Assembly (NCBI GenBank): GCA_944391115.1
Contig: CALXSJ010000024.1
Coordinates: 1 to 47,975 of the forward strand
Length of the DNA: 47,975 bases
Direction of reading: 5' to 3'
DNA from: an uncultured Victivallales bacterium
GTDB taxonomy: Bacteria; Verrucomicrobiota; Lentisphaeria; Victivallales; UBA1829
A program made the position numbers and the translations under genes. The notes beneath the pieces are model-generated. The model did no database searches, was not told the DNA's origin, and saw nothing but the letters and a program-made list of their open reading frames with translations. Positions 29,128 through 34,076 of the stretch are shown here, in pieces; within the stretch, counting starts at the first letter, position 1; every line of letters starts with the position of its first letter.

Positions 29128-31131
29128 ATGACGAAACTTTTTTCATACAGAACGGACGGTTTTGTGCATTTCATCGGTTGCGGAGGAGCGGGAACAAGAC
29201 CGCTGATGCGGATTTTTCATGAACTCGGATTCACCGTTTCCGGATCCGATCTGGCGGAATCGGAGTCGCTGGAGCGTCTGCGCGGAATCGGGCTGAAGGT
29301 GTTCGCGGGGCACGACAAAACGCATCTGCCGACCGCGGACGGAACGAAACTGCTTCTGGTCTACAGTTCCGCGGTCACGGAAAAGAATCCGGAGCTTGCC
29401 GAGGCACGCAGGATCGGGGCGCAGTGCATCCGGAGGGGCGAGGCGCTCGGCCTGCTCGCGGACCTTTTCCCCCATGTAATTGCCGTCAGCGGCTCGCACG
29501 GAAAGACCAGCGTATCGGCAATGATCGCGCATATTCTCAAGACCGCCGGACTCAATCCCGGTTATCTGATCGGGGCGGACGTGGTCTCCTGGGAGGATTC
29601 CGGCAGCGCGGGCGGCGGAAAAATCTTCGTCTGCGAGGCCGACGAAAGCGACGGGACCCATACCGCAATCCATTCCTCGGTCGCCGTCGTGACCAATATC
29701 GAGGACGACCACGCATGGAATTTCGCCTCTCCGGAAATCCTGCTGGAGAACTTCCGCAAGTTTGCGTTTCAGGGGAAAAAACTGGTCTATACGGACGCGC
29801 CGCCCGCGGAAACGCTTTTCCGGGAACATCCCGACGCCTGCGCCATTCCGCCGAGAACGGTACCGGACGATCCGCGTTTCGCCGCATTCGGACACTACCG
29901 GAGAATCAATGCCGCGCTTGCCCTGGAGGCGGTGGCGCGCAGCGGACTGATGGACCGTGAAACCGCGCGGGAGGCGCTTCTCTCCTTTCCCGGCGTCGGC
30001 AGAAGACTCCAACTCCACTGCGCCGGAGAAAAACAGCTGCTGATTGAAGATTACGCCCACCATCCGACGGAAATCGCCGCATCCATCCGGACACTCCGGG
30101 AACTCCATCCCGGAAAACGTCTCGTCGTAATCTTCCAGCCGCATCGCTACGCCAGGCTGAAACGGTATTTCCGCGAGTTCGCCCGGGAGCTTGCGGCGGC
30201 GGACGCCGTCTTCGTAACGCCTGTCTTCGCAGCCTGGACGGAAACCGACTCGCTGGATTCCAAGGATCTCGCACAGGCCATCGGCAGCCGGGCGCGCGCG
30301 CTGAACGGATCATGGAAGGCGATGGCGGATGAGATTTTCCCCCTGCTGCGGGAAAACGACCTCGTCGCAGTCATCGGAGCGGGAGACGTGAAGGAAATTC
30401 TTCCGTTTCTGAAGGAGAAAATCCGCCGGATTCCCGACCTAGCCCTGATATTCGCGGCGGGCGGCTCCTCGCGCCGTTTCGGGCATGGAGACAAGCTTTT
30501 CACCCCGCTGAACGGCGAGCCGGTCTTTCTCCACGCACTCCGCGCGCTTCTCCCCTGCGTCCGCGCCGGATACGCCGTGATGGCGGTGCCGGAAGCAAAA
30601 CGGGACAAGTTCATCGAAGCGCTGCGCAAACATTTTCCCGAGGCGCTGAAAGTCCTCCGCTTCGCACCCGGAGGCGAAACGCGGACGCAGTCCGTAAGGA
30701 ACGCCCTTGCCGCGCTCCCGGAGGACGCGGAGATTGTCGCGGTGCATGACGCCGCGCGGCCGCTCATTACCGCCGGGGCGCTGGCGGACTGTGTCCGGAC
30801 ATGCCGGACATGCGGCGGCGCGGTTTCAGCGCGCCGCGCTTCGGACACGATCAAGGAAACCGATGAAAACGGCATCGTCATCCGGACGCTTCCGCGCGAA
30901 AACCTCTGGACGGTCCAGACCCCGCAGGTGTTCCGCCTCTCCCTGCTCCGGGACGCCTGCCGCGCGGCGGAACAGCACGGAGGAACCTTCACCGACGACG
31001 CGTCGCTCGTTGAGACTTTCACCGGGACAAAGGTCAGACTGGTGGAGAACCGTGCGGAAAACATCAAGATCACCTATCCGGGCGATCTTCTTTTTGCGGA
31101 GGCCTGTCTGAAAGAACGCCGCGGACGCTGA
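29128..31131 (+). CDS. murC-ispD: MurC-IspD fusion: UDP-N-acetylmuramate-alanine ligase joined to MEP cytidylyltransferase
   Basis: One frame of 667 residues encodes two enzymes. Residues 1-435 are MurC-like: HFIGCGGAGTRPL (13-25), ATP loop SGSHGKTS (121-128), CEADESDGT (169-177), VVTNIEDDH (187-195), YAHHPTE (309-315), FQPHRYARL (336-344). MurC adds L-alanine to UDP-MurNAc in peptidoglycan synthesis. Residues 436-667 are IspD-like: FAAGGSSRRFGHGDK (442-456), VHDAARPL (539-546), DTIKETD (573-579), QTPQVFR (597-603), TDDASLVE (622-629), NIKITYPGDL (645-654). IspD makes CDP-methylerythritol in the isoprenoid pathway. No Met and almost no linker separates the halves. The MurC central domain is short between Leu219 and Ala263, compared with ordinary MurC. 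The ATG has GGAG upstream; the frame is open for 1.8 kb more but that stretch is antisense to real genes. Confidence 0.93.
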   Translation: MTKLFSYRTDGFVHFIGCGGAGTRPLMRIFHELGFTVSGSDLAESESLERLRGIGLKVFAGHDKTHLPTADGTKLLLVYSSAVTEKNPELAEARRIGAQCIRRGEALGLLADLFPHVIAVSGSHGKTSVSAMIAHILKTAGLNPGYLIGADVVSWEDSGSAGGGKIFVCEADESDGTHTAIHSSVAVVTNIEDDHAWNFASPEILLENFRKFAFQGKKLVYTDAPPAETLFREHPDACAIPPRTVPDDPRFAAFGHYRRINAALALEAVARSGLMDRETAREALLSFPGVGRRLQLHCAGEKQLLIEDYAHHPTEIAASIRTLRELHPGKRLVVIFQPHRYARLKRYFREFARELAAADAVFVTPVFAAWTETDSLDSKDLAQAIGSRARALNGSWKAMADEIFPLLRENDLVAVIGAGDVKEILPFLKEKIRRIPDLALIFAAGGSSRRFGHGDKLFTPLNGEPVFLHALRALLPCVRAGYAVMAVPEAKRDKFIEALRKHFPEALKVLRFAPGGETRTQSVRNALAALPEDAEIVAVHDAARPLITAGALADCVRTCRTCGGAVSARRASDTIKETDENGIVIRTLPRENLWTVQTPQVFRLSLLRDACRAAEQHGGTFTDDASLVETFTGTKVRLVENRAENIKITYPGDLLFAEACLKERRGR

Positions 31132-31172: not shown

Positions 31173-32705
31173 TCATTTTTTCCAGAAGGACGGCAGGAAG
31201 ATAATCAGAATGGTATAGAGTTCCAGACGGCCGACCAGCATCTCCAGGGCCAGAAGCAGTTTCGCCGCCGGATTCATCCAGGAGAAGGTGTAGATAGGGG
31301 CAAGCTGCCCGAATCCCGGCCCGGCATTGCTGATGCAGGTTGCCGAAGCGGAAATCGCGGTAATCATATCCATTTCGCAGACCGCCGGAAGAACCGTGGC
31401 AAACAGGAATACGGTCAGAATATAAATCGCCAGAAATCCGAACGCCTTGTTGAGAACCGCCGTATCCATGCGTTTGCCGTCCAGGCGGATATCCTGCAGG
31501 GAGCGGGGGAAAATGCAGCGTCTCAGCTCGGAAAAACTGTACTTCAGAAAAAGAAGCAGCCGAACGCATTTCATGCCGCCGGCGGTCGAACCGCCGCACG
31601 CGCCCATGAAGATCAGGCCGAGCAGAAGCATTCCGCACGCGCCGGGCCACAGCGTGTAGTCGGCGGTGGTGAAACCCGTTGTCGTGGAAAGAGCGGCAAC
31701 CTGAAACGCCGCGGCGCGCAGGCAGAGCCACGGAGACATGTGATACTGGTCGCCGCTGATCGGATCTTTCACATGGGAAAAAAACAGCGTCGCGGCAATC
31801 ACGAGGGTCACGACGATCAGAATTCCGGTGAAAAAGCGGTATTCCTCGGAAAGATACTGCCTGAGAGGCAGTCCTTTCAGCGCGCGGTAATGGAGAATGA
31901 AGTTGCAGCCGGAAAGAAACATGAAGATCGTGATGACGACCTGAATGTAGGAGCTGTCGTAATAGGCGATGCTGTTGTTCTTGGTGGAGAATCCGCCGGT
32001 TGCAATCGTGCTGAAGGAGTGGCAGACCGCGTCGAAAAGATGCATGCCGCCGATCCAGAGGAGAATCGTTTCCAGCAGCGTCAGAACGAAATAAACCAGA
32101 AAAAGAATCTTCGCAGTGCTCGCAATCCGCGGCGTAAGCTGGTCGTCGTTGGTTTTTACGCCGGGGACCTCGGCGTTGAACAGGGCCTGCCCGCCCACGC
32201 CGAGCATCGGCAGAATCGCCAGAGAGAGCACCACAATGCCCATGCCGCCGATCCAGTGCGTCAGCGACCGCCAGAAAAGAATGCCGTAAGAGAGACTCTC
32301 GATCCCGTCGGGAAGCGTTGAACCGTCGCGAAGCTTCAGGGTGCTGTCGATCACGGACGCGCCCGTGGTGGTGAATCCGGAAACCGTCTCGAAAAAGGCG
32401 TCGTGCAACTGCATCCCGGTAATGGTGATGAACGGAAGCGAACCGAACAGCGAAACCGCAAGCCAGCCGCCCGCGACGATCGCGAACCCCTCGCGGATCC
32501 CCGTCTGGATGTTCCGTGATCCGGGCCGCAGAAGGATGATGCCGAGCACTCCGGAAAGCGAAATAATCACGGCGCAGCAGAGCATCAGGAGAATTTCATG
32601 AGGATCGTCTCCCATAATCAGGGCGACTCCGCCGCAGGAGGCGACGGCAAGTCCTTCCAGCAGGACCAGAATGGAAATCAGATAGACAACGATTTTCAGA
32701 TTCAT
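31173..32705 (-). CDS. trkH: Trk potassium uptake channel subunit TrkH
   Basis: Inner-membrane K+ channel-like subunit of 510 residues with about ten to twelve hydrophobic segments. The four pore-loop filters are visible in order: VSGFTTTGASV, SFSTIATGGFST, ALSTTTGFTTADY and ATCISNAGPGFG. It needs the cytoplasmic TrkA for gating. It starts 6 bp after trkA and is the last gene of the ptsH-like - trkA - trkH operon. Identification is secure. Confidence 0.95.
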   Translation of the reverse strand: MNLKIVVYLISILVLLEGLAVASCGGVALIMGDDPHEILLMLCCAVIISLSGVLGIILLRPGSRNIQTGIREGFAIVAGGWLAVSLFGSLPFITITGMQLHDAFFETVSGFTTTGASVIDSTLKLRDGSTLPDGIESLSYGILFWRSLTHWIGGMGIVVLSLAILPMLGVGGQALFNAEVPGVKTNDDQLTPRIASTAKILFLVYFVLTLLETILLWIGGMHLFDAVCHSFSTIATGGFSTKNNSIAYYDSSYIQVVITIFMFLSGCNFILHYRALKGLPLRQYLSEEYRFFTGILIVVTLVIAATLFFSHVKDPISGDQYHMSPWLCLRAAAFQVAALSTTTGFTTADYTLWPGACGMLLLGLIFMGACGGSTAGGMKCVRLLLFLKYSFSELRRCIFPRSLQDIRLDGKRMDTAVLNKAFGFLAIYILTVFLFATVLPAVCEMDMITAISASATCISNAGPGFGQLAPIYTFSWMNPAAKLLLALEMLVGRLELYTILIIFLPSFWKK

Positions 32706-32711
32706 AAGGTG

Positions 32712-34076
32712 TCACTTTTCCGGGAAAAGCGGTTCCAGTTCCCTTTCCGCGTCAGGAGTCACAACCGCCACGACCGTATCGCCCGGCTGAAAGACCGTGT
32801 TGCCGGACGGTGCGAAAATTTCGTTCTTCCGGAACGCCAGCGCCAGCAGCGTCGAGGACGGCAGATTGCATGCCGCCAGCTCCTTTCCGCAAAGCGGAGA
32901 CGAATTGGACACCCGGAATTCAGTGAGGCGCGCGTGGAACATCTGCAGAAACGCGTCGATGCGCATGGTTCCGCTTTCCAGCATGCGCAGAATCGAATTG
33001 ACCGCCGTCAGCGTGGTGCTGAACCCGCAGTCGATCATATCCATCGTCGGAACGATGCGGATGTATTCGGGTTTCGATGTGACCGCCACTGTCTTCCGCG
33101 CCCCCAGACGCTTGGCCATGATGCAGCTCAGAATATTGTCCTCGTCATCCTGCGCGGCGCTGACGAAGCCTTCGCAGTCGCGGATTCCGGCCTCTTCAAG
33201 CACCTCCTCGTCGGTGGGGTCGCCGTTGATGACCAGCACGCCGGGCGGAAGCGTGTCAAGCAGCTTTTCCCCTTTCTGCTGGTTCTTCTCCACAAAGCGG
33301 ATGTCGTAGCCGGCGGTGCAGAGGGCCGAGGCAAGCAGTTTTCCCGTGACGGTCGCACCGGCGATGACAATGCGCGATGCCTGCACGGAAATGGACTCCT
33401 CGGAAATCCATGCAATGAAGTTGTTGACGTCGCGGTTGGAACCCGCGATATAGACCTTGTCCCCCGGGACGAAAATCGTGTCTCCGTGGGGAATCAGAAA
33501 TTGTTTCTGGCGGACGATCGCGGCAAACCGGACGGAGTTCAGAAGTCCGGAATCGGTCGGAATATCCTTGACGCGCGTTCCGGCGAGCAGGGACGAAGGC
33601 GTGACACGGAACACCTCCATAACAGCGTCCGGATTCGAAAAACGGATCTTTTCCACAAGCAGACGGTTCCGCAGAACGCTCCGGATTTTTCCGACGCACT
33701 CCTCCGGGGGGGAGACACACTTCCAGATGCCGAGCGCATCCGGCGTGACACCGTCGCTTTCGGAAAAACAGTCGGGCGAATTCACGCGGCAGACCGTTTT
33801 CCGGACACCGAGTTTCGCGGCAAGCTGGCAGCTCAGGATGTTGGCGGCCTCGTCGCCGCTGACGGCAAGCAGCGCGTCCGCGTTTTTGACTCCGGCGTCC
33901 TTCAGCGTGCGGATGCTGACACAACTGCCTTCAACGACCTTGATGTCCATATTGTCGTTGATATGCTCAAGCATTCCGCCGTCGGCATCGATGATCGTCA
34001 CATCATGATCGGCGGTGCTGAGCGTGGAAGCCAGCAGTCTGCCGAGTTCTCCCGCACCGGCGATGATAATTCTCAT
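32712..34076 (-). CDS. trkA: Trk system regulatory subunit TrkA
   Basis: Cytoplasmic NAD/NADH-binding gating subunit of the Trk system, 454 residues, with two tandem RCK halves. The first Rossmann motif is MRIIIAGAGELGRLLA; the second is RIVIAGATVTGKLLA near residue 230, where one Gly of the motif is altered. Each is followed by a TrkA-C domain (PSSLLAGTRVKDIP and NSSPLCGKELAACN). AAGGAG precedes the ATG, and the gene lies 15 bp downstream of the HPr-like gene. Confidence 0.95.
   Translation of the reverse strand: MRIIIAGAGELGRLLASTLSTADHDVTIIDADGGMLEHINDNMDIKVVEGSCVSIRTLKDAGVKNADALLAVSGDEAANILSCQLAAKLGVRKTVCRVNSPDCFSESDGVTPDALGIWKCVSPPEECVGKIRSVLRNRLLVEKIRFSNPDAVMEVFRVTPSSLLAGTRVKDIPTDSGLLNSVRFAAIVRQKQFLIPHGDTIFVPGDKVYIAGSNRDVNNFIAWISEESISVQASRIVIAGATVTGKLLASALCTAGYDIRFVEKNQQKGEKLLDTLPPGVLVINGDPTDEEVLEEAGIRDCEGFVSAAQDDEDNILSCIMAKRLGARKTVAVTSKPEYIRIVPTMDMIDCGFSTTLTAVNSILRMLESGTMRIDAFLQMFHARLTEFRVSNSSPLCGKELAACNLPSSTLLALAFRKNEIFAPSGNTVFQPGDTVVAVVTPDAERELEPLFPEK

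Follow-up and report, generated by a model that had tools for sequence, protein, structure and literature searches.

A MurC-IspD fusion protein conserved in three genera of uncultured Victivallales

The window, as we call the whole stretch of 47,975 nucleotides analysed here, belongs to the genome of an uncultured Victivallales bacterium. Translation of positions 29128-31131 (+) yields one uninterrupted open reading frame of 667 codons plus a stop. The frame stays open upstream to 27352, and the conserved N-terminus of the related proteins starts at the ATG at 29128. The features of the locus are as follows.

29128..31131, +, coding sequence of the MurC-IspD fusion, 667 aa
29161..30411, +, MurC part, residues 12-428, predicted UDP-MurNAc:L-alanine ligase with a short middle domain
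29491..29508, +, ATP P-loop GSHGKT, residues 122-127
29635..29652, +, EADESD metal-binding motif, residues 170-175
30058..30072, +, HHPTE motif, residues 311-315
30136..30156, +, QPHRYAR substrate motif, residues 337-343
30427..30438, +, junction of 4 residues (434-437) between the last MurC helix (420-433) and the first IspD strand (438-443)
30439..31113, +, IspD part, residues 438-662, predicted MEP cytidylyltransferase
30454..30495, +, IspD nucleotide-binding loop, residues 443-456, with the equivalents of E. coli R20 and K27
30745..30762, +, IspD HDAARP motif, residues 540-545
31066..31068, +, IspD Lys647, equivalent of E. coli K213

Pfam recognises Mur_ligase (residues 13-114), Mur_ligase_M (120-212), Mur_ligase_C (292-419) and IspD (439-662; E 1e-54) in this protein. 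Ddl and MurB partner domains are absent by both Pfam and NCBIfam, the partner being IspD. The second half scores 207 bits against NCBIfam ispD (TIGR00453), over the cut-off of 181. The first half is matched best by murC (TIGR01082) with 308 bits, under the cut-off of 335, and relative to the model about 28 residues are missing from its middle domain. The TIGR01082 cut-off was reached by no MurC in the six other Lentisphaeria genomes scanned, so that the low score reflects divergence of the lineage. We call the N-terminal half MurC on the basis of its motifs, fold and phylogeny rather than its equivalog score. The original prediction of MurC and IspD fused in a single frame with almost no linker is thus borne out by a 667-residue protein with a junction of about four residues and by both domain libraries. 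In the window genome, the stretch from 22 codons before the IspD AAGG motif to 41 codons after it contains no ATG, GTG or TTG, which leaves no easy start for a separate full-length IspD.

An AlphaFold2 model built from nine fusion sequences (mean pLDDT 82) has the last MurC helix stopping at residue 433 and the first IspD strand running from 438. In Foldseek searches, the model matches Haemophilus influenzae MurC (1p3d, TM 0.80 by target length) and Bacillus subtilis IspD (5hs2, TM 0.87). In the MurC half, the positions corresponding to E. coli K130, E174, H199 and R327 are conserved, as are HHPTE and QPHRxxR, and the equivalents of E. coli R20, K27, D106, R109, T140, R157, T165 and K213 are kept in the IspD half of all aligned fusions. 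These MurC and IspD residues belong to the active sites of their families. Judged by alignment, the active-site residues that we checked are intact in both domains.

The original prediction had proposed a search of Lentisphaerota genomes for the pair. Our survey of 137 genomes of the order recovered the full-length fusion in 10, namely in every member of genera g1 (the window's genus), g4 and g8, all three of which lie within the window's own Victivallales family. The other nine fusions are 50-95% identical to the window protein by this survey (49-95% in the multiple alignment) and are located on unrelated contigs. Recorded sources and names of the fusion genomes include BRZ_N bin192, SI.B33, digester ADurb.Bin242, yak rectum, yak caecum, sheep colon, water buffalo rumen and SIG94. 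All of those with source records are MAGs or uncultured isolates from separate studies and hosts, and the carriers are a few uncultured Victivallales of guts and digesters. In the remaining 26 genomes of the family, IspD is unfused. When about 85,000 species genomes were scanned, eight records contained the fusion, all from g1, g4 or g8; the patterns used, taken from the MurC half, were biased to Lentisphaeria, and distant convergent fusions could be missed. Among the matches listed for a phylum sample of 388 genomes, no further one spanned the junction. One additional candidate, L149, with a match extending beyond the end of MurC, proved to be unfused at the locus. The dN/dS ratio of both halves is 0.10-0.13 in g1, 0.12-0.15 in g4 and about 0.27 in g8, where dS is near saturation. 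Both halves are under purifying selection. In all three g8 genomes (L014-L016), about 15 residues that would follow the GSD motif are missing from the N-terminal domain of MurC.

The original prediction had pointed to a sequencing error near 30430 as a possible source of the fusion. The window genome is indeed a draft of 44 contigs, and all carriers of the fusion are uncultured. However, the same junction recurs in the nine other genomes, which come from different studies at 49-95% identity, and this uninterrupted repetition excludes a frameshift or a hidden stop. We thus consider the chance that an assembly or sequencing error, such as a missed stop or a chimera, joined two genes to be practically nil.

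At 3.66 Mb and 95% completeness, the window genome encodes a single IspD above cut-off, the fusion itself. Each of the 36 genomes of the family has one IspD gene, fused in 10 and with a frame of at most 335 codons in the rest; in one of the unfused genomes, IspD is broken across two contig ends. Full-length separate genes elsewhere were the other doubt raised in the original prediction, and this doubt is largely removed: there is no other ispD, and the second full-length MurC-like gene that does exist is a paralogue without the MurC substrate residues. This gene, G000:C12:22538-23920 (= L004:1462-2970 (-)), also has murC as its best model (232 bits), and most genomes of the family, whether or not they carry the fusion, have an orthologue of high identity. 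When placed in a tree alongside E. coli MurC and Mpl and other Verrucomicrobiota, the second gene belongs to a long-branched, class-wide clade of its own (100/100), characterised by a G[TS]CGKT P-loop, DYAHN and FQPHG, with both arginines of the substrate motif lost. The fusion half groups with stand-alone MurC of Lentisphaeria and has GSHGKT, HHPTE and QPHRYAR, as in E. coli MurC. In the sampled Lentisphaeria genomes, members of the second-gene clade occur side by side with a fusion-type MurC that stands alone. An assignment of the second gene to Mpl was rejected, since the second genes of Akkermansia-like genomes cluster with E. coli Mpl, whereas that of Lentisphaeria does not.

It could be argued that the fusion is real but that C12:22538-23920 is the housekeeping MurC, leaving the MurC half of the fusion with another ligase role. 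Such an assignment would fit the family-wide occurrence and best model of the second gene, as well as the sub-cut-off score of the fusion half. Nevertheless, the latter scores higher (308 bits) and retains all three motifs, whereas GTCGKT, DYAHN and FQPHG replace them in the second gene, which has lost both substrate arginines and falls into the separate long-branched clade, making this assignment very unlikely. The essential MurC function thus probably resides in the fusion, given that the second gene, a paralogue found across the class, has an altered P-loop and lacks the substrate arginines.

In a tree of 30 sequences, the MurC halves of all 10 fusions fall into a single clade (100/100), which makes a single fusion event likely. 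A single clade of the IspD halves is not rejected (p-AU 0.36), the IspD tree being too short to settle monophyly alone. Hardly any gene neighbours are common to the three fused genera, and in their unfused relatives murC and ispD lie apart; the differences between neighbourhoods thus give no clue as to where the two genes originally lay. In g4, the start of the fusion overlaps the preceding gene, which encodes a DUF2062 protein. An in-frame ATG, perhaps left over from the former ispD start, lies nine codons ahead of the IspD motif in two of the three genomes of this genus. TrkH and TrkA potassium-uptake genes (window 31176-34076 (-)) are convergent with the fusion and adjoin it only in g1. The window genome has a single separate IspF gene (C2:256760-257221 (-)) and a single separate UppS gene (C7:2723-3385). 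On C2, murF and murE (L040:8631-11570 (+)) adjoin ispF on the opposite strand, so that genes of the cell wall and of the MEP pathway are neighbours there too.

Taken together, the protein is very probably a genuine, constitutively bifunctional enzyme whose genes were joined once and which replaced the stand-alone versions, providing a fixed 1:1 ratio without channelling. The N-terminal half would add L-alanine to UDP-MurNAc (the MurC step), and the C-terminal half would transfer CMP from CTP to 2-C-methyl-D-erythritol 4-phosphate (the IspD step). We infer that murC and ispD were joined end to end in the common ancestor of the three genera and that the fusion took over from both stand-alone genes, one gene then supplying two essential enzymes at equal amounts. 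The product would probably be an IspD-type homodimer bearing two MurC units with independent active sites. This bifunctional reading is supported by a single frame containing both families as complete domains, conserved in 10/10 genomes of g1, g4 and g8 in differing neighbourhoods, by the single IspD locus per family genome, by the MurC clade, by the lack of a start codon near the IspD boundary in the window genome, by the presence of IspF and UppS as single genes elsewhere, and by purifying selection, retained active sites and structural matches. Points against it are the sub-cut-off MurC score, the short middle domain, the second MurC-like gene, the restriction to uncultured genomes and the loss of about 15 MurC residues in g8.

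Why the fusion persists is a separate matter. It may have arisen by chance and, offering no regulatory or kinetic benefit, have been kept since both halves are essential, an account that differs from the bifunctional reading only in the reason for persistence, so that the two are not mutually exclusive. MurC uses UDP-MurNAc, L-alanine and ATP, and IspD uses MEP and CTP. The two reactions share no intermediate, which rules out substrate channelling between the halves on established biochemistry and fits a chance event, as does the fact that most relatives manage with stand-alone versions. MurC of this phylum has moreover been fused repeatedly to different partners (PMC4803751). On the other hand, the halves have not separated again in any of the three genera, even though the neighbourhood has turned over; essential fused genes would, however, rarely separate anyway. 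We regard fixation by chance as falling only slightly short of an even prospect, and neutral fixation is a serious rival to any selective advantage. That the bifunctional protein is a regulatory device, in which the halves sense or modulate each other according to UDP-MurNAc/ATP and CTP/MEP status, seems unlikely; if it were true, a single protein would balance the provision of peptidoglycan peptide precursor against that of isoprenoid lipid carrier. Undecaprenyl phosphate, which carries the peptidoglycan precursor, is a product of the MEP isoprenoid pathway. A functional link through this carrier, as the original prediction had it, is reasonable as pathway logic, though not via channelling.

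The fusion is real and conserved but joins two ordinary enzymes, and it adds a new partner for MurC, already known to be fused to Ddl and MurB in the superphylum. Among the closest known systems, the MurC-Ddl protein of Chlamydia (McCoy and Maurelli 2005, as cited in PMC4803751; NCBIfam NF011171) is, as represented in these sources, similar in having an N-terminal MurC with a second essential enzyme at its C-terminus and in belonging to the same superphylum; its partner, however, acts in the same pathway, whereas here it is IspD of the MEP pathway. Verrucomicrobium spinosum has a MurB/MurC fusion that can stand in for both enzymes in the respective E. coli mutants, and it shares with the present protein the GTDB phylum, the N-terminal MurC, a lineage-restricted distribution and the replacement of separate genes (PMC4803751). 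By contrast, MurB catalyses the preceding step of the same pathway, and that MurC is from the longer canonical clade. IspD is likewise one half of the bifunctional IspD-IspF enzymes (PDB 1w55, NCBIfam NF006899), but there it is N-terminal with a same-pathway partner, whereas here IspF is a separate gene.

No MurC-IspD fusion was found among curated NCBIfam models or in our literature search, which was limited to open-licence papers; nor did the original prediction name a precedent for the pair. To the extent of our searches, no covalent link between the soluble pathway of peptidoglycan synthesis and the MEP isoprenoid pathway had been described before. The fusion extends the series of C-terminal fusions to MurC in the superphylum, makes coordination of both pathways testable within one protein and provides a clean lineage marker for the three Victivallales genera. 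A triple fusion, MurC-MurB-Ddl (1027-1029 aa), for which we found no description by title in the literature search, is encoded at L225:1219-4302 (-) (G275:C2) and L226:1484-4573 (-) (G372:C3). Its hosts belong to another family of the same class, and its Pfam domains are Mur_ligase, FAD_binding_4, MurB_C and Dala_Dala_lig.
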